Source of the DNA: Microbacterium sp. 3J1
GTDB lineage: Bacteria > Actinomycetota > Actinomycetes > Actinomycetales > Microbacteriaceae
Reading direction: 5' to 3'
Assembly (NCBI RefSeq): GCF_001049495.1
Contig: NZ_CDWI01000011.1
Span: forward strand, 186,001 to 250,000
DNA length: 64,000 nucleotides
The notes below the pieces were generated by a model. That model was not told the DNA's origin and searched no databases. It was given only the letters and a program-made list of their open reading frames with translations. Positions 1-14,447 of the stretch are shown one piece after another (the stretch's first letter is position 1; the number at the start of each line of letters is the position of its first letter). The translations under genes and the position numbers were made by a program.

Positions 1-612
1 ACCGGCTACGAGGGGCCCTTCGGCCCGGATCGGAGCGACTCCTCCGTCGAGGCCGTCGACGCCTACCTGGAGACCCTCGTGGAGCTGCACTCGCGGCTCG
101 ACTACACCGACGGCATCCGCCCCGTGCTGAGCGCCGGAGGAAGCTCGTTCCCCGACCGCGCGGCTGCCGTGCTCTCGCCCCACCGCGAGCAGAACGACGT
201 CGTGCTGCGATCGGGGGCGTTCCAGATCCACGACGACGGGTTCTACTCGCGCATGTCCCCGTTCGGCCCGCTCACCGGCACCGCACCGCTCCGCTCGGCG
301 ATGCACGCCTGGGCTCGCGTCGTCTCGCAGCCCGAAGAGGGTCTGGCGCTGCTCGACGCCGGTCGTCGGGACGTTCCCTTCGACATCGACCTGCCGGTGC
401 CGCAGTCGGTCGACGGTGCGATCACCGCGCTGAACGACCAGCATGCCTTCCTGACCCTCGCCCCCGGTGCGACGGTCGAGCCGGGCGACGTGGTGCGCCT
501 GGGGCTGTCACACCCGTGCACCGCATTCGACAAGTGGCGCGTGGTCGCGATCATCGACGACCCCGATGCGGCCGACCCGCGCGTGATCGGGGCGGTGGCG
601 ACGTGCTTCTGA
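1..612 (+). CDS. D-threonine aldolase / D-serine dehydratase-like PLP enzyme, C-terminal part
   Basis: The reading frame is open from base 1, so the 5' end lies outside the window; 203 residues remain. What is left resembles the C-terminal half of the alanine-racemase-fold D-threonine aldolase / D-serine dehydratase family. It holds a glycine-rich phosphate-binding stretch (SAGGSSF) and the C-terminal metal-site motif SHPCTAFDKW, where His and Cys hold a divalent metal in characterised members. Such enzymes cleave or deaminate D-hydroxy amino acids using PLP in the cytosol. The stop overlaps the start of the next gene by about 10 bases, so the two are probably co-translated. That places D-amino-acid breakdown next to an N-acyl-D-amino-acid deacylase. 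The exact substrate cannot be read from the sequence. Confidence 0.82.
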   Translation, partial: TGYEGPFGPDRSDSSVEAVDAYLETLVELHSRLDYTDGIRPVLSAGGSSFPDRAAAVLSPHREQNDVVLRSGAFQIHDDGFYSRMSPFGPLTGTAPLRSAMHAWARVVSQPEEGLALLDAGRRDVPFDIDLPVPQSVDGAITALNDQHAFLTLAPGATVEPGDVVRLGLSHPCTAFDKWRVVAIIDDPDAADPRVIGAVATCF

Positions 613-3600
613 GTACCGAGAAGCCGGTCAGGGTCTACCGTCGCGCGACCGTCGTCGACGGGACCGGCGCCGCCCGCTTCGTCGCCGACGTCGCCGTCGA
701 GGGTGCGCGGGTGGTGGGGGTGACCCGGGGTGCCGACGGCGTCGCGTTCGAGCTCCCCGAGGGCGCGGTCGAGATCGAGGCGTCGGGACTCGTGCTCGCA
801 CCGGGCTTCATCGACATGCACGCGCACAGCGAGCTCGCGGTTCTGCAGGGGGCCGCGCACGACGCGAAGATCCGCCAGGGTGTCACGACCGAGGTGCTCG
901 GGCAGGACGGGCTCGGGTACGCGCCCCTCGACGACGCGTCGGCAGCGGTCATCCCCGCGCAGATCGCGGGCTGGAACGGCATGCCGGTGGACGTGCCGTG
1001 GCGGACGATGGACGACCTTCTCGCCGCGATCGACGATGCGGCCGCCGCGAACGCCGCACTGCTCGTGCCGCAGGGCAACCTCCGCATGATCGTCGTGGGA
1101 CACGAGAACCGTCGCGCCACCGCCGAGGAGATCGACGCGATGTCGACGCTGCTCGGCGACGCGCTGGACGCGGGAGCCTTCGGCATGTCCAGCGGGCTCA
1201 CCTACACGCCGGGCATGTACGCCGACACGGCGGAGCTGGAGGCGCTGTGCCGGGTCGTCGCCGAGCGCGGCGGATACTGGGCGCCGCACACGCGCAGCTA
1301 CGGCGGCTCGGCCCTCGACGCGTACCGGGAGGCGCTGGACATCGGGCGCCGGACGGGGTGCCCCATCCACCTCACCCACGCGACGATGAACTTCGCGCCG
1401 AATCGCGGCCGCGCCGCCGAGCTGTTGGCGCTCGTCGACGATGCGCTCGCCGACGGCGTGGACGTGACCCTCGACACGTACCCCTATCTCCCCGGCGCGA
1501 CCACGCTCGCTGCGCTGCTGCCCAGCCGGCTCTCGGAGGGCGGGGACCTCATCGCCGCGATCGCCGCCCTGGACGCCGACGGGCGAGAAGCCGTGCGCGT
1601 CGAGCTCGAGGACATCGGGTGCGACGGATTCCACGGCGAACGCGCGGACTGGTCGGCCATCCAGATCGCGGGCACGAGGAATCCGTCTCTCGCGGCGCTC
1701 GTCGGCCGGACGGTGGCGGAGATCGCCGAGACGTCGGGGCGTCGGGCGGTCGACGTGGTGCTCGACACGATCGTCGCGGATGCCGGTGCGACCGGCATCC
1801 TCATGCACATCGGCGACGAGGACAACGTCCGGGCGATCATGCGCCACCCGCGGCACAGCGGCGGCAGCGACGGGATCCTGATCGGCGCCAGGCCGCATCC
1901 CCGAGGCCGAGGCACGTTTCCGCGGTACCTCGGGCACTACGTGCGGGAACTCGGAGTGCTGTCCCTCGAGGACGCAGTCCGGCACCTCTCGGGAACGCCC
2001 GCTGCGCGGCTGGGACTCGACCGCGGCGATGCGCCGCGGGGCGTGATCAGAGAGGGTGCTGCGGCCGATCTCGTGCTGTTCGACCCCGACACGATCGACG
2101 CCGGAGCGACCTTCGACGCGCCGCTCGAGGCTCCGCGGGGTGTGATCGAGGTGCTCGTCGGGGGAGTGCCGGTCGTGGCCGCCGGCGAGGTGACGGGTGC
2201 GACGCCCGGTCGCGCACTGCGCATGCCTCCGCCGGCTCATCGTGCGACGGTTCCCCGGGCGCACTCGCTCATCGACCCGTCTGCGCCGCCGTTCGTCTGG
2301 ACCGAGAACACACCGGTCTCCGCGCCGGCGGCGCTCGCCACGAGCGCGGCGCGCCTCGGGGCGAAGGCCTCGCGGGACGACTCGACCCCTGCGATCACCC
2401 TGCGGCTCGACGAATCGCTCGGCGCCGAGCCGTTCGCCCGCGGCCGGGTCGTCGACGAGGCCTTCCGGGTCGTCGTGTCCGCCGACGGAGTCGAGGTCTC
2501 CGGCGCCGCGCCGGCCGGCGTCTTCCGCGGCGTCACCGTGCTCCGTCAGCTCCGCGACCCGAGCGCCGAGCGGCACCGCATCCCCGCCGGAGTCTGGGAG
2601 GGGGCGCCCGCCTACGCGTGGCGGGGCGCGATGCTCGACGTCGCCCGGCACTTCCGCCCGGCCGAGGACGTACGTCGTCTCTTAGACCAGCTGGCCGACC
2701 ACCACCTCAGCGTGCTGCACCTGCACCTCACCGACGACCAGGGCTGGCGTTTCGAGGTGCCCGGGTATCCGCGGCTCACCGAGATGGGCGCGCGCCGGGA
2801 GGCCACCCAGCTCGGACACGGGCCGCTCGCCACCGTCGAACCGGGGGTGCACGAGGGGCACTACACGGATGCCGAGCTGCGCGACCTCGTCCGGTACGCG
2901 GCGGAGCGCTTCATCACGATCGTGCCGGAGGTCGAGCTCCCCGGACACGTGCAGGCGGCGCTCGCCGCCTACCCGGTTCTCGGCAACACGGATGTGGGGG
3001 AGCCTGTCACGACCCCGTGGGAGCGCTTCGGCGTGAACCCCCGAACGCTCGCTCCGACGGAGGAATCGCTCGAGTTCGGGAGGGCGGCGATCGCGGCGCT
3101 GTGCGATCTCTTCGACTCGCCGTGGATCGGGATCGGCGGCGACGAGGTCCCGGTGACCGAGTGGTCCGAGAGCCCGGCGGCGGCCGAGCGGATGCGGGAG
3201 TGGGGCGTCGAATCGCCGCACGACGTGCAGCCCTGGTTCACGGCGCAGTTCGTCGCCGCCGTGCGGGCGCACGGGCGCGTCGCTCTCGCCTGGGACGAGG
3301 TTCTCGAGGGTGACGTCCCCGAAGGGGTGAGCATCCTCGCCTGGCGCGGGCCGGTGGCCATCCGTGAGGCGCTGCGGCGCGGCATCCCCGTCGTCGCGTG
3401 TCCCGATCTCGAGGTGTACCTCGACTACCCGCAGTCCGACTCGGCGGAGGAGCCGATCCGGGTCGGGCCGCCTCTCACCATCGAGCGGGCCTACTCGCTG
3501 CGGGTCGAGGAGGGCGCGGCGGGCGGCCAGGCGAACGTGTGGACCGAGCATCTTCCCACGAGGGATCGCCTCGACTTCGCGCTCTTCCCCCGGCTCGCGG

Positions 3601-3857
3601 CGATCGCCGAGCGGCTGTGGGACGGGGGCGAGCCCGGACCGTTCGAGGACTTCGGACGGCGTCTGCCGACGCACCTCCGTCGGCTCGCGGCGTCGGGGGT
3701 GCGGTATCGTCCTCTGGACGGACCGACGCCCTCACAGCGTCGTCCGGGAGTGCCGGGAAAGCCGATGACGCGCGAGGCGCGCGAGGAGATCGTGGCGGGC
3801 CTCGTGGCCTTTCTGATCGCTCGATCGGACGCCGCCGACGAGCGGCTCGGAGAGTAA
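603..3857 (+). CDS. Fusion: N-acyl-D-amino-acid deacylase domain + GH20 beta-N-acetylhexosaminidase domain
   Basis: One uninterrupted frame of 1084 residues from a GTG start at 603, which overlaps the previous stop. Residues about 1-545 are an amidohydrolase of the D-aminoacylase type: MHAHS (H73, H75), the GVTTEV segment, a THATMNF histidine, LDTYPY and a typical C-terminal SGTPAARLGL / GAAADLVLFD end. Residues about 560-1070 are GH20: an N-terminal beta domain, then a barrel from YAWRGAMLDVARHF (671), LHLTDDQGWRF, the catalytic pair D847-E848 in IGIGGDEVP, and a late NVWTEH plus FPRLAAIAERLW. The usual His of HxGGDE is Gly here. Each half is close to full family length, so this looks like a real bifunctional protein and not debris. 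No signal peptide is visible, so it should act on imported substrates. The operon continues with a ROK regulator, sugar kinase and NagB, which suggests sequential removal of an N-acyl group and an amino sugar from one compound, for example a muropeptide or an aminoacylated glycan. That substrate is inference. Confidence 0.85.
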   Translation: MLLSTEKPVRVYRRATVVDGTGAARFVADVAVEGARVVGVTRGADGVAFELPEGAVEIEASGLVLAPGFIDMHAHSELAVLQGAAHDAKIRQGVTTEVLGQDGLGYAPLDDASAAVIPAQIAGWNGMPVDVPWRTMDDLLAAIDDAAAANAALLVPQGNLRMIVVGHENRRATAEEIDAMSTLLGDALDAGAFGMSSGLTYTPGMYADTAELEALCRVVAERGGYWAPHTRSYGGSALDAYREALDIGRRTGCPIHLTHATMNFAPNRGRAAELLALVDDALADGVDVTLDTYPYLPGATTLAALLPSRLSEGGDLIAAIAALDADGREAVRVELEDIGCDGFHGERADWSAIQIAGTRNPSLAALVGRTVAEIAETSGRRAVDVVLDTIVADAGATGILMHIGDEDNVRAIMRHPRHSGGSDGILIGARPHPRGRGTFPRYLGHYVRELGVLSLEDAVRHLSGTPAARLGLDRGDAPRGVIREGAAADLVLFDPDTIDAGATFDAPLEAPRGVIEVLVGGVPVVAAGEVTGATPGRALRMPPPAHRATVPRAHSLIDPSAPPFVWTENTPVSAPAALATSAARLGAKASRDDSTPAITLRLDESLGAEPFARGRVVDEAFRVVVSADGVEVSGAAPAGVFRGVTVLRQLRDPSAERHRIPAGVWEGAPAYAWRGAMLDVARHFRPAEDVRRLLDQLADHHLSVLHLHLTDDQGWRFEVPGYPRLTEMGARREATQLGHGPLATVEPGVHEGHYTDAELRDLVRYAAERFITIVPEVELPGHVQAALAAYPVLGNTDVGEPVTTPWERFGVNPRTLAPTEESLEFGRAAIAALCDLFDSPWIGIGGDEVPVTEWSESPAAAERMREWGVESPHDVQPWFTAQFVAAVRAHGRVALAWDEVLEGDVPEGVSILAWRGPVAIREALRRGIPVVACPDLEVYLDYPQSDSAEEPIRVGPPLTIERAYSLRVEEGAAGGQANVWTEHLPTRDRLDFALFPRLAAIAERLWDGGEPGPFEDFGRRLPTHLRRLAASGVRYRPLDGPTPSQRRPGVPGKPMTREAREEIVAGLVAFLIARSDAADERLGE

Positions 3858-3936: not shown

Positions 3937-5124
3937 ATGTCCGTTTCGGGTGATCACGCTCCATCGATGGCGTCGGAGTACGCCGGGGGGAGCGCCCACG
4001 CCTTCGGCCCGGGACGCCACCTGCGCTCGCGCTCGAAGGTGCTTCCCGAGCACGCGCGCGGGCACAACCGCGCGCTCGTGCTGCAGACTCTCTACCACTC
4101 CGGGGCGATGAGCCGCGCCGACCTCTCTCGGGAGACCGGCCTCACGAGGGTCACGATCTCGGATCTCGTGGCCGAGTTCATCGCCGACGGCATCGTCATC
4201 GAGATGGGCGTCCGCGAGACGGTGGGACCGGGCAAGCCGCCGATCCTCATCGACATCGACCGCGTGGGGCACCAGATCATCGGCATCGACCTGTCGGGGC
4301 CGAGAGCCTTCGTCGGAGCGCTGCTCAGCCTCGACGGCGATGTCCTGGAGCGCCGCGAGGTGCCGCGACCCGAGACCCCCGACGGCGACGCCGCGTACGC
4401 AGCGACCCTCGAACTCGCGCGTGCGCTGGTGCAGACCGCATCGCAGCCCGTGCTCGGGGTGGGCATCGGCACACCGGGTGTCGTGCGACCCGACGGCATG
4501 GTGCTCAGCTCGCCCAACCTGGGATGGTCGGATCTGCCTCTCGAGGCCAAGCTCGGGGTCGACCTCGACCTTCCGGTGCTGGTGCGCAACGACGCGAATG
4601 CGGCGGTGCTCGCCGAGTACACCTTCGGCGACGCCAAAGCGGACTTCATGCTCATCCGGATCGGACGCGGTGTGGGTGCGGGTCTCATCACCGGCAGCCA
4701 GCCTCTCGTCGGCAGTCGCTTCGCCGCGGGCGAGATCGGCCACGTCGTGGTCGGCACCGACGGCGGACCCCGCTGCGCGTGCGGCAAGGACGGCTGCCTC
4801 GAGGCATGGCTCAGCGAGACGCGGCTGCGGCCCGCGATCGACGCGGCACCGGACGACCGCGACGACATCCTCCGCGACGCCGGTACCCGGATGGCCATCG
4901 CCATCGCTCCGATCGTGGCAGCCCTCGACCTCTCCGAAGTGGTTCTCTCGGGCCCGGCCGACCTCCTCGACGGCGTCCTGATCGACGCCGCCGTCGAGAC
5001 GCTGCACGCCCGCACACTCGAGGGGGTCTTCGAAGACGCCCTCATCCGTCGCACCCACCAGGACGACATCGTGCTGCGCGGCACCGCCGTCATGGTGCTG
5101 TCCGGCCAGCTGGGCGTCTCGTGA
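3937..5124 (+). CDS. ROK-family transcriptional regulator (NagC/XylR type)
   Basis: 395 residues. A winged helix-turn-helix lies at about 45-100 (HNRALVLQTLYHSGAMSRADLSRETGLTRVTISDLV pattern), followed by a sugar-kinase-fold ROK domain. The ROK zinc motif appears as CACGKDGC near residue 280. The ATP-binding loop characteristic of ROK kinases is degraded (GIDLSGPRAFVG in place of DxGGTK), as expected for a regulator. A palindrome abuts its start codon. The sugar kinase starts 40 bases after its stop and NagB follows, so an amino-sugar effector (GlcNAc or its 6-phosphate) is likely. The ligand is inferred from neighbours only. Confidence 0.9.
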   Translation: MSVSGDHAPSMASEYAGGSAHAFGPGRHLRSRSKVLPEHARGHNRALVLQTLYHSGAMSRADLSRETGLTRVTISDLVAEFIADGIVIEMGVRETVGPGKPPILIDIDRVGHQIIGIDLSGPRAFVGALLSLDGDVLERREVPRPETPDGDAAYAATLELARALVQTASQPVLGVGIGTPGVVRPDGMVLSSPNLGWSDLPLEAKLGVDLDLPVLVRNDANAAVLAEYTFGDAKADFMLIRIGRGVGAGLITGSQPLVGSRFAAGEIGHVVVGTDGGPRCACGKDGCLEAWLSETRLRPAIDAAPDDRDDILRDAGTRMAIAIAPIVAALDLSEVVLSGPADLLDGVLIDAAVETLHARTLEGVFEDALIRRTHQDDIVLRGTAVMVLSGQLGVS

Positions 5125-5164
5125 TCTGCGGATCAGGGAACGAGACGTGCAGGAGCACCATCCG

Positions 5165-6130
5165 ATGACGGATGCGATGACCGCCGACCTCGCCGGTCGG
5201 CCGATACGTGTGGGCCTCGACGTCGGTGGCACCAAGATCGACGCCGTCGCCGTGGACCCGTCGGGGGACATCATCGCCCGCCGACGCCGCCCGACGGGCT
5301 GGGGAGAGGACGCCGTCGTCGCGAGCATCGTCGACGTGATCACCGACCTCGCCGTCGACGGCGGTTTCGCCTCGACGGCCGTGGGAACGGTCGGTGTCGG
5401 CATCCCCGGTCTCGTCGACGCGGACACCGGACGCGTGCTGCATGCGGTCAACCTCGGGGTCGAGTCGCTCGACCTCTCGGAGCGGGCCTCTGCGATCGTC
5501 GGTGCGCCGGTCAGGGTCGAGAACGACGTCAAGGCGGCGGCACTCGGCGCCGCCGCTCTGCGCGGCATCGAGGGCTCCATGGCGTACCTCAACCTCGGCA
5601 CCGGTGTCGCCGCCGGCATCGTCGTCGACGGCGCGATCTGGCGCGGGTCGCGCGGCACCGCGGGCGAGGTCGGACATCTCTCGGTCGACCCGAACGGTCG
5701 GGTCTGCGGATGCGGACAGCGCGGCTGCATCGAGACCTTCTGCGGCGGCGGGGCGCTCGCGCGGGCCTGGGGTCGCCCCGGCGCGCTGCCCGTGCGGGAC
5801 ATCCTCGATGCCGCCGAGAGCGGCGACCCGACGGCCACGGCTCTGCGCGCAGACCTCTTCCACGGAGCCGCTGCCGCGGTGCGCGCGCTCGTGCTGTCGG
5901 CGGATGTCGAGCGCGTGATCATCGGCGGCGGCCTCACGGCGCTGGGCGACAGGCTGTTCACCGGCATCCGCGGAGCTCTGCGTACCGGAGCCGAAGCGTC
6001 ACCGTTCATGCGGTCGCTGCAGCTCGATGACAGAATCGAACTGCTTCCGGACGGATCGCCCGCCGCGGCATTCGGCGCGGCGATCGTCGGCGCAACCACC
6101 CCCTCGAAGGAGATAGTCCCCCATGGCTGA
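5165..6130 (+). CDS. ROK-family sugar kinase, probable N-acetylglucosamine kinase
   Basis: 321 residues, the usual ROK kinase length. It begins with the phosphate-binding motif VGLDVGGTKIDAVAV, has LNLGTGVAAGIV in the middle and the zinc motif CGCGQRGC near residue 180. It phosphorylates a hexose, most likely GlcNAc, at O6 using ATP in the cytosol. The ATG at 5165 is chosen over the GTG at 5147 because AGGAG sits 9 bases upstream of it. The stop overlaps the nagB start by 8 bases. Glucokinase activity cannot be excluded because ROK glucokinases and GlcNAc kinases look alike; the neighbouring nagB favours GlcNAc. Confidence 0.85.
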   Translation: MTDAMTADLAGRPIRVGLDVGGTKIDAVAVDPSGDIIARRRRPTGWGEDAVVASIVDVITDLAVDGGFASTAVGTVGVGIPGLVDADTGRVLHAVNLGVESLDLSERASAIVGAPVRVENDVKAAALGAAALRGIEGSMAYLNLGTGVAAGIVVDGAIWRGSRGTAGEVGHLSVDPNGRVCGCGQRGCIETFCGGGALARAWGRPGALPVRDILDAAESGDPTATALRADLFHGAAAAVRALVLSADVERVIIGGGLTALGDRLFTGIRGALRTGAEASPFMRSLQLDDRIELLPDGSPAAAFGAAIVGATTPSKEIVPHG

Positions 6131-6902
6131 AGTCGTGATCGTCGAGAACTCCGATGCGGCGGGCGCGCTGGTCGCCGCCGAGATCGTCGAGCTGATCGAC
6201 GGGCGCCCGGATGCGGTGCTCGGTCTGGCCACGGGGTCGACCCCGCTGCCGGTGTACCAGGCGCTGCGCGCCCGTCTCGCCGGCCGGGACGTCTCGCAGG
6301 TGCGCGGCTTCGCACTCGACGAGTACGTCGGCCTCGACCCCGCCCACCCCGAGAGCTACCGCTCCGTCATCACCCGCGAGGTCGTCGAGCCCCTCGGCCT
6401 CGACCCGCGGCGCATCCATGTGCCCAACGGAGCGCAGGAGACCATCCAGCACGCGGGTGACGACTACGAGGCGGCCATCGACGGCGCGGGCGGCGTCGAC
6501 CTGCAGATCCTCGGCATCGGCACCGACGGCCACATCGGCTTCAACGAGCCGGGTTCGTCCTTCGCCTCCCGCACGCGCGTGAAGACGCTCACCGAGCAGA
6601 CCCGTGAGGACAACGCCCGCTTCTTCGACTCCATCGACGACGTCCCGCGGCACTGCATCACGCAGGGTCTCGGCACGATCCTCCGCGCACGCCACCTCGT
6701 GCTCCTCGCCTTCGGCGAAGGCAAGGCGCAGGCCGTGGCGGATGCCGTGGAGGGCCCGCTGTCGGCGATCCTGCCCGGCTCGGCCATCCAGCTGCACCCG
6801 CATGCGACGGTCGTCGTCGACGAGGCGGCCGCGTCGCGACTGAAGCTCGCCGACTACTACCGCTACACCTACGCGAACAAGCCGGCCTGGCAGGGCATCT
6901 GA
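6123..6902 (+). CDS. nagB: Glucosamine-6-phosphate deaminase NagB
   Basis: 259 residues, standard for NagB. Diagnostic segments are LATGSTPLPVY (phosphate site), FALDEYVGL, and GIGTDGHIGFNEPGSSF, which carries the catalytic Asp and Glu/His, then RVKTLTEQTREDNARFF. It converts glucosamine 6-phosphate to fructose 6-phosphate and ammonia in the cytosol. AAGGAG lies 10 bases before the ATG, inside the kinase gene. The deacetylase NagA needed before this step is not in this operon but lies at 11719-12885. Confidence 0.97.
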   Translation: MAEVVIVENSDAAGALVAAEIVELIDGRPDAVLGLATGSTPLPVYQALRARLAGRDVSQVRGFALDEYVGLDPAHPESYRSVITREVVEPLGLDPRRIHVPNGAQETIQHAGDDYEAAIDGAGGVDLQILGIGTDGHIGFNEPGSSFASRTRVKTLTEQTREDNARFFDSIDDVPRHCITQGLGTILRARHLVLLAFGEGKAQAVADAVEGPLSAILPGSAIQLHPHATVVVDEAAASRLKLADYYRYTYANKPAWQGI

Positions 6903-6932: not shown

Positions 6933-7340
6933 TCAGCGGTCGGCGACCGGCCACGCCAGCGGCAGCAGGTGCTCGACGCTCAGAGGGGCGAGGGGGAGCG
7001 TCTCGGCATCCGCGGGCGTGATCCACCTCAGCTCGGCGAGCTCGGCCTGCACCGCGACCTCGGCGGACGCGATCGAGACGGAGAACGCCTCGGCGACGAC
7101 GCGGTGACCCGGCTCGTTCGCAGCCTCGGAGACGAATGTGCCGAGCGGTTCGAGGTCTCCCTCGTCGAGCTGCAGTCCGAGCTCCTCGTGGAGTTCGCGG
7201 ATCAGCGTCTGCGACGGGGTCTCGTCGGGCTCCGGCTTGCCCCCGGGCTGCATGAACCTCGTGGTGCCGTGCTTGCGCACCACGAGCACCCGACCTGCGT
7301 CGTCGACGATGACGGCGGCGCTGACGTGGATGTCAGGCAT
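6933..7340 (-). CDS. Nudix hydrolase
   Basis: 135 residues with a complete Nudix box, GGKPEPDETPSQTLIREL followed by HEELGL, fitting GX5EX7REUXEEXGU. Nudix enzymes hydrolyse nucleoside diphosphates linked to another group; the substrate here is unknown. Its ATG lies within the last codons of the upstream FAD oxidase gene (8-base overlap), so the two are translationally coupled. It converges with nagB across a 30-base gap. Confidence 0.9.
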   Translation of the reverse strand: MPDIHVSAAVIVDDAGRVLVVRKHGTTRFMQPGGKPEPDETPSQTLIRELHEELGLQLDEGDLEPLGTFVSEAANEPGHRVVAEAFSVSIASAEVAVQAELAELRWITPADAETLPLAPLSVEHLLPLAWPVADR

Positions 7341-8697
7341 CCGCTGCGAACACCTTGCCGGGGTTGAGGATGCCGAGGGGATCGAAGACCCGGGTGATCT
7401 GCCGCTGCAGCTCCCACTGATCGTCTCCGAGCTCGTCGGCCAGCCAGCGGCTCTTCAGGGTGCCGATGCCGTGCTCGCCGGTCAGTGTGCCGCCCAGTGC
7501 GATCGCCGCCCGGAAGAGCTCGTCGGCGGCCGCCCAGATGTGCGCGGGCGGCTCGGTGCCTTCGAAGATGAAGTTGGGGTGCAGGTTGCCGTCGCCCGCG
7601 TGAGCGACCGTCGGGATCGTCATCGCGTACGCCTGCTCGATGCGGGCGATCTCGTCGAACATCGCGGGCATCGCACTGCGCGGCACCGAGACGTCCTCGA
7701 TCAGGGTTGTACCCAGGAGCGCCATGGCAGGGTGCATGGCACGGCGGATCGCGAGCAGACGTTCGCCCTCTTCGCGATCGTGCGAGACCTGGGTGTCGCC
7801 GTGGTGCGCCGTGAGGATCGCGGCGATCGTGGTGGCCTCCGTCACGGAGCCCGGGCCGTCGGTCTGGATCGTCAGCTGCGCCGTGCCCGGCTGCGGGAGG
7901 GGCAGCTGGAGCATGGTGGCGACGGCAGCGAGGCTCGCCGCATCCATGAGCTCCATGATCGCCGGCTGCACTCCGGAGGCCGTGACGGCGGCGGATGCGG
8001 CGGCGGCGGCGCGGACGTCGGGGAAGGTCGCGGTGAGGGTGCACGTCGTACCCTCTGGGAGCCGCCGGAGCTTGAGCGTCGCACCCACCACGACGCCGAG
8101 AGTCCCCTCCGACCCGATCACCAGCGAGGTGAGGTCGAGGCCCGTCACTCCCTTCACGCTGCGGTGGCCGAGGTGGAGCAGACGTCCGTCCGCCAGCACG
8201 AGGTCGACACCCAGCACGGCGTCGCGCACCACTCCGTACTTGGCGCAGAGGAGGCCGCCGGCGCCCGTGGCGATGTTGCCGCCGACGGTCGAGATCGCAC
8301 GGCTGGCGGGGTCCGGAGCCCACCAGAGGCCGTGCTCGGCGAGCACCTCGTTGAGGTCGGCGTTGAGGATGCCCGGCTCGACGACGGCGAGCAGGTCGTC
8401 GGCTCTGATCTCGCGGATGGCGGTCATGCGTCGGGTGGACAGCACGATCTCGCCGTCGCCGCCGTTGGCTGCACCGGCAAGGCCCGTCCCGGCGCCGCGC
8501 ACGACAACGGGGGTGCGCGTCTCGGTGGCGATCCGCATCACGGTCTGCACGTGCTCGACGGTCTCGGCATGCACGACGGCCAGAGGGCGACCGGGAGCCG
8601 CGTGGCCGGACTGGTCGGCGCGCGCCTCGTCGAGCGACGCGGGATCGGTGTCGACGAGCGCACCCAGGGCGGTGATCAGCTGGTCGAGCGCGGTCAT
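7333..8697 (-). CDS. FAD-linked oxidase, glycolate oxidase GlcD / D-lactate dehydrogenase type
   Basis: 454 residues. N-terminal FAD-binding_4 (PCMH-type) domain with VVRGAGTGLAGAA and STVGGNIATGAGG, then the FAD-oxidase C domain with the metal and substrate residues in TVAHAGDGNLHPNF and the closing GEHGIGTLKSRWL. It oxidises a 2-hydroxy acid (glycolate, D-lactate or 2-hydroxyglutarate) to the 2-oxo acid. The start is the ATG at 8697, which forms an ATGA overlap with the upstream membrane-protein gene; longer frames upstream lie inside that gene. No GlcE or GlcF partner is present, so a single-subunit enzyme is likely. Confidence 0.9.
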   Translation of the reverse strand: MTALDQLITALGALVDTDPASLDEARADQSGHAAPGRPLAVVHAETVEHVQTVMRIATETRTPVVVRGAGTGLAGAANGGDGEIVLSTRRMTAIREIRADDLLAVVEPGILNADLNEVLAEHGLWWAPDPASRAISTVGGNIATGAGGLLCAKYGVVRDAVLGVDLVLADGRLLHLGHRSVKGVTGLDLTSLVIGSEGTLGVVVGATLKLRRLPEGTTCTLTATFPDVRAAAAASAAVTASGVQPAIMELMDAASLAAVATMLQLPLPQPGTAQLTIQTDGPGSVTEATTIAAILTAHHGDTQVSHDREEGERLLAIRRAMHPAMALLGTTLIEDVSVPRSAMPAMFDEIARIEQAYAMTIPTVAHAGDGNLHPNFIFEGTEPPAHIWAAADELFRAAIALGGTLTGEHGIGTLKSRWLADELGDDQWELQRQITRVFDPLGILNPGKVFAADA

Positions 8698-9065
8698 GCG
8701 ATGCGACGCCGTCCGCTCACCACGCCGGTGCCGACGGCGACCACGGCGAAGGCGATTCCGATGAACGGCTGGTCCATCAGCCACCAGGCGATCGTCACGC
8801 CGACGTAGATGAGCAGCTCGACGGCCGCACGCAGGAACGGGTGCAGGCGCAGCACGGGGCGCGGCGAGAGGAAGAGAGCCCAGATCAGGATGACGATCAC
8901 GGGTGCGCCGATGCCCAGGACGATGTTCCACGGCAGCGGCCAGGTCGCGAAGCCCCACAGCGCGAGGGTGCCGACAGCGATGACCAGGACGATCGAGCGG
9001 ACGACGTCGAGAGCGGTGAGGTTCGGGCGGTCGACGCCGGGGACAGGTGCAGGATCCGGGGACAT
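8694..9065 (-). CDS. Small integral membrane protein, YrdB / DUF2568-like
   Basis: 123 residues with four predicted hydrophobic helices at about 21-40, 46-66, 80-97 and 100-116, and a basic RRR end. Hydrophobic pattern and size match the YrdB/DUF2568 family, whose function is unknown. It heads the small operon with the FAD oxidase and Nudix genes. It may be a simple membrane anchor or scaffold; nothing catalytic is visible. Confidence 0.7.
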   Translation of the reverse strand: MSPDPAPVPGVDRPNLTALDVVRSIVLVIAVGTLALWGFATWPLPWNIVLGIGAPVIVILIWALFLSPRPVLRLHPFLRAAVELLIYVGVTIAWWLMDQPFIGIAFAVVAVGTGVVSGRRRIA

Positions 9066-9094: not shown

Positions 9095-11245
9095 TCAGAG
9101 CAGGGGAGCGGAGGCGTCGACGACGGCCTCGGGCTGCTCCGTGAGAACCGGCGGTGCGGTGGGAGCGGGCACGGCCGGCGCGGGCTCTGCGACGGGTGCA
9201 GGTGCGACCGGTGCAGGTGCGACCGGTGCGGGTGCGACCGGTGCGGGTGCGACCGGTGCGGCGTCCTCGGTGGGAGCGGTCTCCTCGACGGGCGCGGGCG
9301 CCTCGCTGGCCGGGGCAGCGGGCGGGGCCGAGACCATTGCGTCGTCGGGAACCGCGTCGTCCGCCTCCGCGCCGGAGGCGGGGTCGGCGAGCAGCAGGCA
9401 CAGCAGGCTCGGATCGAAGTCGTTCAGCTGCCGGAGGGTCGTCGTCGCCGGGGCGCCGGTCTCGCCGGCTGCGACATAGAAGAACTCGACGGGAGCGTCG
9501 GCGCAGATCTGCTGCAGCGTCGGACGGAGGTCGATGAATCCGGATCCCACCGCGGGGTTCTCGTCGGACGCGGCGAGGACGGCCGTGCCGTTGCCGCCGG
9601 AGCTGCCGGCGATCGTCGAGCTCACCGTGGCGCCGGCGACGCCGGACACCGGGACGATGTAGTGAGTGGTCACGAGATCGCCGCCGATGACGATCTCGAC
9701 AGACGCAGGAGAGAACGTCGGGGCGCCCTCGGGAAGACCGGGTGTCTCGCCGCCGGGGGTTTCGCCGCCGGGGGTTTCGCCGCCGGGGGTCTCGCCGCCG
9801 GGGGTCTCGCCACCGGGCGTCTCGCCGCCGGGGGTCTCGCCGCCGGGCGTCTCGCCGCCGGGCGTCTCGCCTCCGGGGGTTTCGCCTCCGGGCGTCTCGC
9901 CGGGGTCCTCGGTGTCCGGAACCTCCGGCTCGATCGGCTGCGGCGGAGTCACCGGAGTCGCGGGAGCCGTCGGAGCGGCGGCCACGGGCGCTTCCTCGTC
10001 GGCGGGCTCGTCGACGGGCGGCGGCGCGAAGGGAGGCTCGTCCGGATCGTCCTCTCGGTCGGATTCGTCGTCCGACTGCTCGAGGAGGGTCTTCTCGTCT
10101 GCCGACATCGATGCGTCCGGGCCGACATCGGCACTGATCGAGGAGTCGCTGTCTCCGGCGCTCGGCAGCGAGGCCGCCGGGCTGCCTCCCGTGAGGCTCG
10201 GGATGATGGTCGCCGCGGCGACGACGCCGGCCACGACCAGGGCCGCTGAGCCCGCACCGACGAGTGCGCCCATGCCGCTCAGGATCCCGCCGCCCACTGC
10301 GCCGCTCGCCGCTCCACCGGTCGCGCCGACGGATGCTCCTGCTCCGGCACCGCCGGCAGCTCCCACGCCGCCGTCGCCGACCACGACCGCACCGTGCGTG
10401 ACCGCGGACGGCATGGCGGCGAGGGCGACGATCGGCGCTCCGCCACCCTGCAGTGTGGCGAGGTATCCGGCGGAGCCGCCGACACCCAGTACGAGTGGGA
10501 GCAGCACGAGCGCGAGCCTCTTCGACACGTCTTTCGCCTCGGCCGCGACGATCATGCATCGCGCGCAGTCCTCGAGGTGCAGTTCGAGTCGCCGGTGATC
10601 GCGGGTGCTGAGGTTGCCGCGCGAGTACGCCCCTAGGTGCTCGATGGTCCACTGGCAGTCGGAGCCGGGCGCTGCGCTGCGCAGGTGCGCCTGGATCCAC
10701 GCCTCGCGCAGCCCCTCCCGCGCACGGAAGGCGAGCTGCGAGACGGCTCCGGCCTTCATGCCGAGGAGGGGCGCCGTCTCCTGCGGCTTCATCTGCTCGA
10801 TCTCGGTGTACCAGAGCACCTCCTGCCAGCGGGAGGGCAGGCTGCGGAAGGCCTGAGCGGTGAGGCTGCGGTCGAGTGCCTCGTTCGCGGCCTGCTCGGT
10901 GCTGTCGGGGTCGGCGACCGTGTCGAGCTCGTCGATCGCGGATTCGCGGCGCGAGCGCCCCCACGCGGCGGCGGTGTTGCGGATGCTGGTGAAGAGGTAG
11001 GCGCGGAACGAGCCGTTGGGCCCGCCGCCCTTGATGATCGCCTGGTAGATGCGGGTATAGGACTCCTGGACCAGGTCGTCCGGATCGATCGTCGACGTGA
11101 TGGATCGCGCGACGGACATGCCCGAGGGATAGTGACGTCTCCAGAGTTCGGCGAAGGCCTCCGCGTCACCCGAGCGGGTGCGCAGGACGAGATCGGCGTC
11201 TGCGATCGAGGCTTCGTTCGATGTGCTGTCGTGGTCCACTGTCAT
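9095..11245 (-). CDS. Membrane-tethered ECF sigma factor fused to zinc anti-sigma-like segment, TM helices and repeat-rich tail
   Basis: 716 residues. Residues about 25-95 are sigma region 2 (AEAFAELWRRHYP, IDPDDLVQESYTRIYQAI), about 130-188 region 4 (AFRSLPSRWQEVLWYTEIEQ, GMKAGAVSQLAFRAREGLREAW). A zinc anti-sigma signature HxxxCxxC follows at H223, C227, C230. Hydrophobic segments lie at about 245-264 and 320-350. After these come an acidic Pro-rich stretch, eleven tandem GETPG units (about 447-501), a globular segment with paired Cys, and PVAPA repeats near the end. A normal ECF sigma is about 180 residues with a separate anti-sigma; here both roles seem to sit in one chain, with the tail outside the cell. 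Release of the sigma part presumably needs proteolysis or a conformational signal. No separate anti-sigma gene is adjacent. Confidence 0.85.
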   Translation of the reverse strand: MTVDHDSTSNEASIADADLVLRTRSGDAEAFAELWRRHYPSGMSVARSITSTIDPDDLVQESYTRIYQAIIKGGGPNGSFRAYLFTSIRNTAAAWGRSRRESAIDELDTVADPDSTEQAANEALDRSLTAQAFRSLPSRWQEVLWYTEIEQMKPQETAPLLGMKAGAVSQLAFRAREGLREAWIQAHLRSAAPGSDCQWTIEHLGAYSRGNLSTRDHRRLELHLEDCARCMIVAAEAKDVSKRLALVLLPLVLGVGGSAGYLATLQGGGAPIVALAAMPSAVTHGAVVVGDGGVGAAGGAGAGASVGATGGAASGAVGGGILSGMGALVGAGSAALVVAGVVAAATIIPSLTGGSPAASLPSAGDSDSSISADVGPDASMSADEKTLLEQSDDESDREDDPDEPPFAPPPVDEPADEEAPVAAAPTAPATPVTPPQPIEPEVPDTEDPGETPGGETPGGETPGGETPGGETPGGETPGGETPGGETPGGETPGGETPGGETPGLPEGAPTFSPASVEIVIGGDLVTTHYIVPVSGVAGATVSSTIAGSSGGNGTAVLAASDENPAVGSGFIDLRPTLQQICADAPVEFFYVAAGETGAPATTTLRQLNDFDPSLLCLLLADPASGAEADDAVPDDAMVSAPPAAPASEAPAPVEETAPTEDAAPVAPAPVAPAPVAPAPVAPAPVAEPAPAVPAPTAPPVLTEQPEAVVDASAPLL
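9185..9258. repeat. 15-bp tandem repeat encoding PVAPA units
   Basis: Four to five near-identical 15-base units (GGTGCAGGTGCGACC and single-base variants) within the 3' end of the sigma-fusion gene. In frame they encode repeated Pro-Val-Ala-Pro-Ala, as in cell-wall-spanning linkers. Confidence 0.75.
9740..9904. repeat. 15-bp tandem repeat, 11 copies, encoding GETPG units
   Basis: Eleven in-frame 15-base units (GTTTCGCCGCCGGGG and variants on the plus strand) inside the sigma-fusion gene. Copies differ at one to three third-codon positions, so the peptide repeat is preserved while the DNA drifts. Length variation by whole units would keep the frame. Confidence 0.9.
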
Positions 11246-11718: not shown

Positions 11719-12885
11719 TCAGGGGCGGTCGCCCGTCCAGACGCGCACCACGTGCAGCTGTGCATCCAGCAGCACGGCATCGCCCACGTATCCGGGTGCG
11801 AGATGACCGAGGCGCTCTGCGAGGCCGATCGCCCGAGCGGGAGTCTCGGTGAGGGCGCGGACCGTGTCCACCAGGGCGACGCCCGCAGCCACCGCCTTCC
11901 GCAGAGCGACATCCTGCGTGAGCGTCGAGCCGGCGATCGACCCGGTGTCGTCGGCGCGGGCGATCCCGTCGCGGACGGTGACGCTCACCGCGCCGAGGTC
12001 GTAGTGCCCGTCAGCGCTCCCTGCCGCGGCCATCGCGTCGGTGATCAGGGCGACCCTGCCGGGGGCCGAGTCGAACAGCAGCCGCACGACGCGCGGGTCG
12101 AGGTGCACGTCGTCGGCGATCGCCTCGAGCACCACGCGGTGGTCCGCGGCGGCGGCGAGCACGGGGCCGGGGGCGCGGTGATGGATGCCGGGCATGGCGT
12201 TGAACGCGTGGGTGAGGATCGATGCGCCGGCCTCGAATGCGGCGACCGCCATGTCCGCGTCGGCGCTGGTGTGCCCCACGGCGGCGGCAGCACCGGCCTC
12301 GACGACGAGGCGCACGGCGTCGAGCCCTCCCGGCAGCTCCGGCGCGATCGTCACCTGCCGGATGGTGCCGCGACCGGCGTCGAGCAGACGCGCGACGTCG
12401 GCCGGTGTCGGGGCGCGGAGGAGCGTCGGCTCATGCGCGCCGTGGTGCGCCGGGTCCAGGAAGGGACCCTCGAGGTGGGAGCCGAGGATGTCGGCATCCG
12501 TCTCCCTGAGGTCGGCGATCTCGGCGACCCTCCGCGCCAGGTCGTCGAGGGGCGCGGTGACGAGGGACACGACGGCCCTGGTCGTGCCGTGGTCCCGATG
12601 CAGGGCGCGGGCCGTGCGGATCGCGTCCGCACCGTCGTCGAACGAGGCGCCGGCGCCGCCGTGGCCGTGGATGTCGATGAAGCCGGGCGTGAGCACCGCA
12701 TCCGCTCCGGCCGCCTCCGCCGCGTCGACGATCTCATCCGCCTCCGCCCAGGTGCGTCCCGTTCCGCGCTCCACGACCAGGCCGTCCTCGATCCGCACCC
12801 AGGCGTCCTCGGTGACGGTGCCCTGATCGACGAGTCGGGCCGAGTGGATGACGAGCGAGCCCGTCGCTGCGGCGCCGATGCTCAT
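11719..12885 (-). CDS. nagA: N-acetylglucosamine-6-phosphate deacetylase NagA
   Basis: 388 residues, normal NagA length. Motifs in order: PGFIDIHGHGGAG (first metal/His pair), GSHLEGPFLDPAHHGAHEP with the metal-binding Glu, AVGHTSADADMA, LTHAFNAMPGIHHRAPG and LITDAMAAAGSADG with the catalytic Asp. It removes acetate from GlcNAc 6-phosphate in the cytosol and supplies NagB. The start is the ATG at 12885, which overlaps the stop of the hexosaminidase gene (ATGA), so the two are translationally coupled. The frame continues open upstream, but only inside that neighbour. Confidence 0.95.
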   Translation of the reverse strand: MSIGAAATGSLVIHSARLVDQGTVTEDAWVRIEDGLVVERGTGRTWAEADEIVDAAEAAGADAVLTPGFIDIHGHGGAGASFDDGADAIRTARALHRDHGTTRAVVSLVTAPLDDLARRVAEIADLRETDADILGSHLEGPFLDPAHHGAHEPTLLRAPTPADVARLLDAGRGTIRQVTIAPELPGGLDAVRLVVEAGAAAAVGHTSADADMAVAAFEAGASILTHAFNAMPGIHHRAPGPVLAAAADHRVVLEAIADDVHLDPRVVRLLFDSAPGRVALITDAMAAAGSADGHYDLGAVSVTVRDGIARADDTGSIAGSTLTQDVALRKAVAAGVALVDTVRALTETPARAIGLAERLGHLAPGYVGDAVLLDAQLHVVRVWTGDRP

Positions 12886-14399
12886 CGTTCGCTCCAGGGG
12901 ACGTCGTCTGCGGGGTGGAAGTCCACGCCTCCAGCCTTCCACAGCGGTGCCATGCTCCCGAGACGCTCCCGGAACGACTCCCACGTGCGCTCGGGTGCGT
13001 CACGTGACGACCAGGCGACCTCGGCCTGGGCGGCGGCCCGGGGGAAGACGAGCTGCTCCACCTCGCCGATCGTCGCCGTCGTCTCGCTCCAGAGCGGGGC
13101 TTCGACGCCGAGGATCGCCTCGTCCGGTACGTCGAGCACCTCGGTGGGCTCCCACTCGTAGGCGGAGCGCACGTCGATGATGGCCGCCCACGTGAGTCCG
13201 AGCGGGAAGTCCGGTGCGTACTTCATGTCTAGGTAGGTCTTGTCGGCCGTCGACATGATGAGGGCGCCGCCGCGCTCGACGAAGTGCGCGGCCTCGGCCG
13301 CGTGGGTGCCGTCGGGGGTCGCCTTGCCCCAGTACTGCCCGATCGTTCCCTCAGCGATATCGGCCGCGGCTCCCACCTCGTGCCAGGCCACCGGGGTCCT
13401 CCCCTCCTCGAACACGATCGCGGTCGCACGCTCAACGAAGTGGTCGAAGTCGGCCTGGGGTGTTCCGAGCGACTCGTCGCCGCCGATGTGGATGTACGGA
13501 CCGGGCGTCATCTCGACGAGCTCCCGCACGACGTCGCGCACGAAGTCGTAGGTGCGCTCGTCATGGATGCGGACGCTCGAGTGGCCCACGCCCCAGCCCA
13601 GATACGGCTCTCCGGCGACGGGGAGCTCCTGGCCGAGGCGCTTCGACTCGGAGATGAGGCCGTCGTTCATCACGGGGGCCTCGACGAGCTCCGGATAGGC
13701 GACGCCGATCGCGTGCGTGTGCCCGGGGAGATCGATCTCGGGGATGACGATCATATGCCGCGAGGCGGCGTACGCCACGATCTCGCGGTAGTCGTCCTTC
13801 GTGTAGAAGCCGCCGGGTGCCCCGCCGGCCGCGGTCGACGCCGCGAGCTCTGTCAGCTTCGGCCACGAGTCGATCTGGATGCGCCAGCCCTGATCGTCGC
13901 TGAGGTGCAGGTGCAGGTGGTTGAACTTCAGGGCGCTGATGTGATCGATGAACTTCTTGACGTCGTCGACCCCGAAGAAGTGCCGCGCGACGTCGAGCAT
14001 CACTCCCCGGCGCGCGAATCGCGGTGCGTCGAAGATCTCTGCACGGGCGACGCCCCAGCCCTCGTCGTCCTGCCGGAGCAGCTGGAGCAGTGACTGGACG
14101 CCGTAGAAGAGGCCGGCCTCATCGCCGCCCACGATCTCGGCCGTGTCGCCGATCGTGAGACGGTACCCCTCGAGCGCCGCGGCTCCGGGGTCGATGCGCA
14201 GGTGGATGTCGGCGGCGCGGTCGGCGTCCGACGGGAGAGGGAGCCGGATGCCGGTGCGCTGCGCCACGGCATCGATGAGCTGCGCGGCGGCGGCGGCATC
14301 GCCGGTGATGCGCGTGGCCTCGCCGATCGGCATCCGGCCGTCGCCGACGCTGGCGGAGAGGGGGAGGGGGACGAGGGGCATGGAATGGGGAAGGACCAT
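12882..14399 (-). CDS. GH20 beta-N-acetylhexosaminidase
   Basis: 505 residues from the ATG at 14399, with AGGGTAGG 8 bases upstream; a TTG at 14405 and an ATG at 14381 are alternatives. An N-terminal GH20b-type beta domain (about 10-125) precedes the barrel, which begins ARRGVMLDVARHFF. LHLHLSDDQGWRIQ and the intact catalytic motif HIGGDE (H304, D308, E309) are present, followed by APLWSETTA and FPRAAAQAEVAW. It releases terminal GlcNAc or GalNAc. No signal peptide is visible, so it probably acts on imported chitobiose-like or glycan fragments. Coupled to nagA. Unlike the GH20 domain at 603-3857, it keeps the conserved His. Confidence 0.93.
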   Translation of the reverse strand: MVLPHSMPLVPLPLSASVGDGRMPIGEATRITGDAAAAAQLIDAVAQRTGIRLPLPSDADRAADIHLRIDPGAAALEGYRLTIGDTAEIVGGDEAGLFYGVQSLLQLLRQDDEGWGVARAEIFDAPRFARRGVMLDVARHFFGVDDVKKFIDHISALKFNHLHLHLSDDQGWRIQIDSWPKLTELAASTAAGGAPGGFYTKDDYREIVAYAASRHMIVIPEIDLPGHTHAIGVAYPELVEAPVMNDGLISESKRLGQELPVAGEPYLGWGVGHSSVRIHDERTYDFVRDVVRELVEMTPGPYIHIGGDESLGTPQADFDHFVERATAIVFEEGRTPVAWHEVGAAADIAEGTIGQYWGKATPDGTHAAEAAHFVERGGALIMSTADKTYLDMKYAPDFPLGLTWAAIIDVRSAYEWEPTEVLDVPDEAILGVEAPLWSETTATIGEVEQLVFPRAAAQAEVAWSSRDAPERTWESFRERLGSMAPLWKAGGVDFHPADDVPWSER

Positions 14400-14447
14400 G
14401 AACAAAACCTACCCTGCGTGATCCGGAGTGCACAGGGGGAAATCGGC

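Follow-up and report, generated by a model that had tools for sequence, protein, structure and literature searches.

The question raised by the locus described here is why a deacylase and a hexosaminidase should be made as one polypeptide. The DNA analysed (hereafter the window) is a stretch of 64,000 nucleotides from Microbacterium sp. 3J1 (contig NZ_CDWI01000011.1, positions 186,001 to 250,000), and the gene in question joins an amidohydrolase of the N-acyl-D-amino-acid deacylase kind to a glycoside hydrolase family 20 (GH20) beta-N-acetylhexosaminidase. An initial annotation of the sequence proposed that the protein takes apart a compound carrying both an N-acylated D-amino acid and a beta-linked amino sugar, such as a muropeptide, with the D-amino acid passed to a pyridoxal 5'-phosphate (PLP) enzyme encoded upstream and the sugar to a kinase and NagB. 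The answer reached below, which we hold to be probable from comparison of sequences, is a bifunctional cytoplasmic OngB-OngA-like fusion for C1-oxidised chitobiose, GlcNAc-beta-1,4-GlcNAc1A (GlcNAc, N-acetylglucosamine; GlcNAc1A, N-acetyl-D-glucosaminic acid).

The reading frame of the fused gene is free of stop codons. Pfam assigned Amidohydro_3 to residues 57-525 (4.5e-28), the GH20 N-terminal domain GH20b to residues 550-663 and the GH20 catalytic domain PF00728 to residues 671-1007 (3.2e-86). The whole protein was modelled with AlphaFold2 from a 26-sequence alignment (mean predicted local distance difference test score, pLDDT, 84.3; predicted template-modelling score, pTM, 0.76). Residues 2-543 of the model matched PpOngB (PDB entry 9kb3) with a Z score of 42.2, a root-mean-square deviation (rmsd) of 2.5, 475 of 478 residues aligned and 33% identity, and residues 544-1047 matched GH20 enzymes, the best being 7cbo (Z 50.8, rmsd 2.5, 487 residues). 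Because these full-length matches abut, both domains of the model are whole folds and are joined directly at about residue 543/544, without a linker. The closest solved GH20 enzyme by sequence is Arthrobacter 3rcn. No signal peptide was seen at the start of the fusion when the sequence was read by eye. An assembly artefact or frameshift was rejected, as each of the 40 fused records inspected, which stand for 36 distinct places (the genus genomes among them may include the ten named loci introduced below), holds a single open frame with both active-site motifs. The D-E pair of the GH20 domain is kept in 34 of 34 fused records. The pairing of a full-size deacylase with a full-size GH20 enzyme, as first annotated, is thus confirmed.

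Among the solved structures matched by the deacylase half were PDB entries named PpOngB, which lead to the ong pathway. In this pathway (PMC9537276), OngA, a GH20 enzyme, splits GlcNAc-GlcNAc1A; OngB deacetylates GlcNAc1A; and OngC, a PLP enzyme of fold type III and a distant relative of D-serine deaminases and D-threonine aldolases, makes 2-keto-3-deoxygluconate (KDG). The RidA protein OngD and KdgK also belong to the pathway, with KdgA in some genera, and the complete pathway is reported there from Gammaproteobacteria and one betaproteobacterium. GlcNAc1A is chemically an N-acetyl-D-amino acid, so GlcNAc-GlcNAc1A is a compound of the type first proposed; the abstract logic of that proposal, including the division between the PLP enzyme on one side and the kinase and NagB on the other, is supported, and its muropeptide example is the part that is given up.

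The same set of genes surrounds the deacylase in relatives in which it is not fused. GTDB genomes were scanned with an alignment of the deacylase, and the best 80 of 519 relatives, all actinobacterial by title, comprised ten named fused loci (nine Microbacterium and one named Microbacteriaceae only) and 70 unfused loci, from which all locus counts given below for either kind are taken. An OngC-like gene was found in 68 of the unfused loci, a RidA gene in 68, a KDG-kinase-like PfkB gene in 59 and a 2-keto-3-deoxy-6-phosphogluconate (KDPG) aldolase gene in 40. A GntP permease and an IclR regulator were each counted in 43; both counts come from crude gene calling, and Pfam named one protein from each of these two groups. 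OngC-like, RidA and PfkB genes lie together near the deacetylase in 47 of the 56 unfused loci for which at least 16 kb was fetched. The usual order is RidA, IclR and PfkB on one strand, divergent from OngC, OngB, aldolase and GntP, and the hosts of the linked cluster include Streptomyces, Kribbella, Nocardia, Rhodococcus and Arthrobacter. Within the genus, four PfkB proteins of unfused relatives have models of KDG/2-keto-3-deoxygalactonate (KDGal) kinases as their top match (three at about 160 bits and one at about 100). GntP permeases are of the gluconate type, as suits an aldonic acid. The unfused cluster, in which such a permease accompanies the ong set of genes, looks like a complete GlcNAc1A pathway. 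A GH20 gene is present in the fetched stretch of eight unfused loci from about three lineages (L178, L192, L196 and L198 of Amycolatopsis, L150 and L158 of Arthrobacter, and L129 and L133). At the Amycolatopsis locus L196 the cluster is followed by a lactonase, a sugar-binding protein and a permease (parts of a sugar ATP-binding cassette, ABC, system) and GH20; a Saccharopolyspora locus also has a lactonase, so that both Pseudonocardiaceae loci examined carry one. The named fused loci hold an OngC-like gene in nine cases and RidA in all ten. Literature searches, together with passages of PMC11653859 and PMC5387316, found no paper that describes this fusion or a GlcNAc1A pathway in actinobacteria, most subscription papers lying outside their coverage.

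Under the proposed scheme, GlcNAc-GlcNAc1A would enter the cell, the GH20 half would remove the non-reducing GlcNAc and the amidohydrolase half would then take the acetyl group off the freed GlcNAc1A. The resulting D-glucosaminate would be converted to KDG and ammonia by the OngC-like PLP enzyme with the help of the OngD-like RidA protein, and a PfkB KDG kinase and a KDPG aldolase encoded elsewhere in the genome would complete the acid branch. The freed GlcNAc would pass through the ROK kinase, NagA and NagB. A wider proposal is that Actinomycetota have a whole GlcNAc1A pathway of their own, based on a separate family of deacetylases whose metal site is Asp/His/His, and that the Microbacterium fusion both splits chitobionic acid and deacetylates the product, possibly with hand-over between the two sites, the disaccharide being made by the lytic polysaccharide monooxygenases (LPMOs) of other organisms; we regard this fuller version as evenly poised.

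The known enzymes closest to the two halves resemble the fusion in part. PpOngB (PDB entries 9kb1 and 9kb3; PMC12017989) shares with it the whole-domain fold, the HxH pair, the two metal-binding histidines, the catalytic aspartate and, as genomic partners, OngC-like, RidA and PfkB proteins; the window protein differs in an Asp metal ligand, a Thr/Tyr/Thr pocket, the GH20 fusion and its actinobacterial host. The D-aminoacylase of A. faecalis (1m7j) and the N-acyl-D-Glu deacylase of B. bronchiseptica (3gip) likewise share the fold (Z about 42), the HxH and His/His residues and the aspartate, but their metal Cys corresponds to Asp102 and their carboxylate-binding Lys to Thr261, and the genomic context here is one of KDG and KDPG enzymes. 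OngA, likened here by description rather than by sequence, is also a GH20 enzyme, and its pathway likewise includes a deacetylase and an enzyme of the OngC kind; it is predicted to be periplasmic, with a signal peptide (PMC9537276), whereas none is visible in the fusion. The GH20 enzyme HJ5Nag from the same genus is described as a stand-alone 55.9-kDa protein that has a predicted signal peptide and no deacetylase (PMC5387316).

For PpOngB, a subtype V metal site formed by Cys97, His222 and His252 is described and a new carbohydrate esterase (CE) family is proposed; Lys254 binds the carboxylate and Glu226 the C4-OH group, and Ser292 is a substrate residue (PMC12017989). PpOngB residues were mapped onto the window protein through the A. 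faecalis and B. bronchiseptica enzymes in HMMER alignments, and conservation was assessed in 95 relatives (L104-L198). His68/His70, the metal ligands His222 and His252, Tyr194, Tyr285, the catalytic Asp368 and Arg379 of PpOngB are all kept. The candidate sites in the window protein, with roles assigned by analogy to PpOngB, are H73, H75, D102, H229, H259, the putative catalytic D423, Y201, Y293 and R434; D423, H73, H75, Y201, Y293 and R434 occur in 95 of 95 relatives. The loop alignment at the position of PpOngB Gln298 is unsure and the residue of the window protein there varies among relatives, and this position was not used for specificity. The deacylase half belongs, on sequence, to a family beside OngB and the D-aminoacylases, and it may work like OngB.

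Three sets of observations weigh against the assignment to oxidised chitobiose: the pocket of the deacylase, the gene content of the hosts and the looseness of the local link to OngC. As to the pocket, the metal ligand Cys97 is replaced by Asp102 in the window protein and in 95 of 95 relatives, and Lys254, Glu226 and Ser292 are replaced by Thr261, Tyr233 and Thr300, respectively (Tyr233 and Thr300 in 95 and Thr261 in 90 of the 95). The fold search with the model left OngB and the D-aminoacylases tied (Z 41.6-42.2, about 470 residues aligned) and was uninformative as to which of them is closer. Because the defining Cys/His/His site is lacking, the protein was not filed as an OngB, and neither the Cys metal ligand nor the carboxylate Lys of the subtype V D-aminoacylases is found in it. 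Position 102 was also inspected in 16 more distant paralogues from the genus, where it is Asp in 14, Cys in one (G109) and Thr in one; none of the pathway partner genes was found in 18 kb at the Cys-type paralogue of G109 (a single locus), which speaks for the assignment rather than against it. Other Microbacterium genomes hold second clusters with an Asp-type deacetylase (L072-L077 and L085; 35-38% identity); every one of these contains an OngC-like gene, and RidA or PfkB is present in some.

Such a pocket, different from that of PpOngB and yet near-invariant, would suit an amidohydrolase half acting within an ong-like pathway on another N-acylated amino-sugar acid (the galactosamine or mannosamine counterparts GalNAc1A and ManNAc1A, another acyl glucosaminate or the intact disaccharide acid). 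A PLP dehydratase-like enzyme, PfkB, an aldolase and GntP suit any 2-amino-2-deoxy-hexonate, and few members of the host group have LPMO genes. The attached GH20 domain and the nagB and ROK genes, on the other hand, indicate GlcNAc at the other end of the substrate, and in nature an acid of this kind has its obvious origin in C1-oxidised chitin (PMC12017989). We consider this alternative unlikely, though it deserves to be kept in mind.

The pocket bears equally on the muropeptide route, in which an N-acyl-D-amino-acid deacylase and a hexosaminidase would act on muropeptides or glycosylated D-amino-acid compounds and the PLP enzyme on D-Ser or D-Thr. The fold is as close to the D-aminoacylases as to OngB, the residue at position 292 is Thr as in D-aminoacylases, and OngC of P. 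prydzensis is reported also to deaminate D-Ser and D-Thr (PMC9537276). The carboxylate Lys common to OngB and the D-aminoacylases is missing, however, and the route was dropped in view of the partners that recur: a KDG-kinase-like PfkB, a KDPG aldolase and the GntP permease fit a sugar acid. It is improbable.

The second set of observations against an enzyme for oxidised chitobiose concerns gene content. All PfkB proteins examined score below the cut-off (400-440 for the KDG/KDGal models), including the KDG-kinase-like PfkB of the window's own genome, and PfkB, aldolase and GntP were found in the fetched stretch of none of the ten named fused loci. With no GntP and with GH20 present, the fused version may serve the disaccharide and the unfused version the free acid. 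In favour of the assignment, besides this PfkB the window's genome has two KDPG/2-keto-4-hydroxyglutarate (KHG) aldolases, one of them above the eda cut-off. The PfkB locus of this genome (L204, C11:20000-32000) lies near a RpiR/MurR-type regulator and a carbohydrate ABC transporter, and the transporter is a candidate importer for the sugar acid. No AA10 LPMO (PF03067) was found in this genome, other LPMO families not having been searched. Searches were run against 149 genomes of the genus Microbacterium, a family sample of 398 and a sample of 396 from the phylum outside the family; the counts of fusions, OngC relatives, deacetylase matches and binding proteins depend on the E cut-offs used. 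AA10 is present in five of the 149 genus genomes, so that most carriers of the fusion locus lack it, and the host would need other organisms to make the acids on which it lives. The fusion locus, whole or as a remnant, is held by 40 of the 149 genomes, and these include four of the five (G066, G076, G083 and G114, not G109). Of the 12 genomes with AA10 in the family sample, ten lie outside the genus, and not one of the ten belongs to the 25 in which a deacetylase was matched. Co-occurrence with LPMO was rejected as proof of substrate, as it is weak in the genus (where kinship was left uncorrected) and absent elsewhere in the family. An ABC importer (sugar-binding protein and permeases) stands in the fusion operon of G061; there and in G039, the two deep-branching fusions, the gene between the ROK regulator and the ROK kinase encodes a sugar-binding protein. 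The binding protein of G061 was rejected as a common importer, as it does not track the fusion.

The history of the fusion was followed in the same genomes. It is whole in 34 of the 149 genus genomes (33 single matches and G099, which gave two matches in the scan and one open frame on re-alignment). The match in G023 reaches only residue 1003, that in G066 is split by contig ends, and that in G114 counted one TAG in the scan and showed no stop between residues 9 and 1069 on re-alignment. Outside the genus, where two candidates per genome were scored, no match covering both halves was found among the 25 family and 13 phylum genomes with a deacetylase match. In a midpoint-rooted tree of 117 deacetylases, built by a quick method and with some long branches outside the fused clade, the 19 fused sequences form one clade with support 100 among unfused, mostly Microbacteriaceae, sequences. 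Four genus members have a separate deacetylase gene (54-61% identity), adjoining an OngC-like gene in three and with a separate GH20 gene near it in two; this is probably the older state, and a single origin of the fusion, in Microbacterium and from a separate deacetylase gene, forms part of the explanation judged probable at the outset. The fusion has also decayed. In G115 (L038, near 8321-8402) the deacetylase residues are kept and a stop occurs at residue 548, with no GH20 found behind it. In G128, G071, G076 and G132 (L030-L033) the GH20 D-E pair is kept and the deacetylase half lacks catalytic residues or large stretches; a local OngC-like gene is absent from all four and local RidA from three, an observation in favour of the proposed scheme. 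Separate halves and a stop at the border, both of which the initial annotation had named as grounds for refutation, do occur in relatives, and the fusion in the window stands.

The third set of observations emerges here. An OngC-like gene adjoins 28 of the 34 intact fusions, which favours the scheme, and is not local in six, five of which have an OngC relative elsewhere (47-51% identity), beside a PfkB gene in three; the search of the remaining one, the 79%-complete genome G108, gave no OngC relative at its cut-off. All four genomes in which the deacetylase half has decayed retain an OngC relative elsewhere, and for both reasons the local link is not absolute. The joining itself may have been neutral, a fusion of neighbouring genes without gain. 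This is compatible with the two activities proposed, and a chance join would be easy, since some relatives have a separate GH20 gene near their unfused deacetylase; the fusion is nevertheless whole in many genomes, and its halves correspond to consecutive enzymes, OngA and OngB, of a documented pathway (PMC9537276). A join without benefit seems improbable to us.

The surroundings of the fused gene in the window (Table 1) agree with the initial annotation as to the PLP gene before it and the ROK regulator, ROK kinase and nagB after it. The PLP gene and the fused gene overlap by ten bases. The best solved relative of the PLP enzyme is the D-serine deaminase 3gwq (4.6e-51), with which its C-terminal Ser-His-Pro-Cys motif aligns, whereas it does not align with D-threonine aldolase 4v15; we take the residues of this motif to be the zinc ligands of D-serine dehydratases. 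A RidA-family gene lies outside the window, divergent from the PLP gene and 25 bases away, and a scan for promoters and terminators between RidA and ongC found nothing. Besides the fusion, the window's genome holds two GH20 matches, one on contig C9 and the unfused one in the window.

Table 1. Features at the fused locus (positions in the window)
Feature	Position	Strand	Remarks
Fused OngB-like N-acyl deacetylase and GH20 beta-N-acetylhexosaminidase (putative)	603..3857	+	1084 aa, GTG start
Deacetylase half, residues 1-543	603..2231	+	Residue alignment, fold search
GH20 half, residues 544-1084, catalytic pair D847-E848	2232..3854	+	Pfam, fold search
OngC-like PLP enzyme, 3' part (405 aa whole)	1..612 (start 605 bases before the window, contig C11:185395)	+	D-ser_dehydrat PF14031
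ROK-family regulator	3937..5124	+	ROK domain; weak N-terminal MarR_2 match below cut-off
ROK-family sugar kinase, probable GlcNAc kinase	5147..6130	+	ROK match
nagB, glucosamine-6-phosphate deaminase	6123..6902	+	Above TIGR00502 cut-off
nagA, GlcNAc-6-phosphate deacetylase	11719..12984	-	Above NCBIfam TIGR00221 cut-off
Second, unfused GH20 adjoining nagA	12882..14405	-	Pfam

The absence of nagA, as first annotated, holds for the operon and not for the window: the gene lies 4.8 kb further on and is likely to supply the missing step of the GlcNAc branch. The suggestion that the amidohydrolase half deacetylates GlcNAc or GlcNAc-6-phosphate in place of NagA, to which an operon with nagB and a ROK kinase and no nagA had pointed, is weakened by this gene, by the little or no activity reported for OngB on either compound (PMC9537276) and by the many loci in which the family accompanies OngC, PfkB and aldolase and in which the same search found no nagB, and is very improbable.

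Convergent to nagB is a gene for a flavin adenine dinucleotide (FAD)-linked oxidase (7333-8958, minus strand; FAD_binding_4 and FAD-oxidase_C). Behind fused loci, a group of genes from 11 loci looks by its first residues like this same gene, and L163 has a gene of this two-domain make-up behind its unfused cluster. Further on, one frame (9095-11245, minus strand) combines sigma-70 regions 2 and 4 (region 4 just below the cut-off) with a zf-HC2 anti-sigma-like zinc finger, a stretch that is hydrophobic by eye and a long Pro/Gly/Thr repeat region, and contains a 15-base tandem repeat in 11 copies at 9738-9902.

Oxidised chitin ends arise wherever chitin-active LPMOs work. If the assignment to GlcNAc-GlcNAc1A is true, the linked cluster of deacetylase, PLP dehydratase, RidA and KDG kinase would put the GlcNAc1A pathway in common soil actinobacteria, and the Asp that is conserved where the metal Cys would be expected would represent a different metal site among these deacetylases. 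The fusion offers a ready test case for whether joining two steps matters. In Microbacterium, two joined enzymes probably carry out the opening reactions of a nutritional pathway that has so far been described chiefly from marine bacteria.

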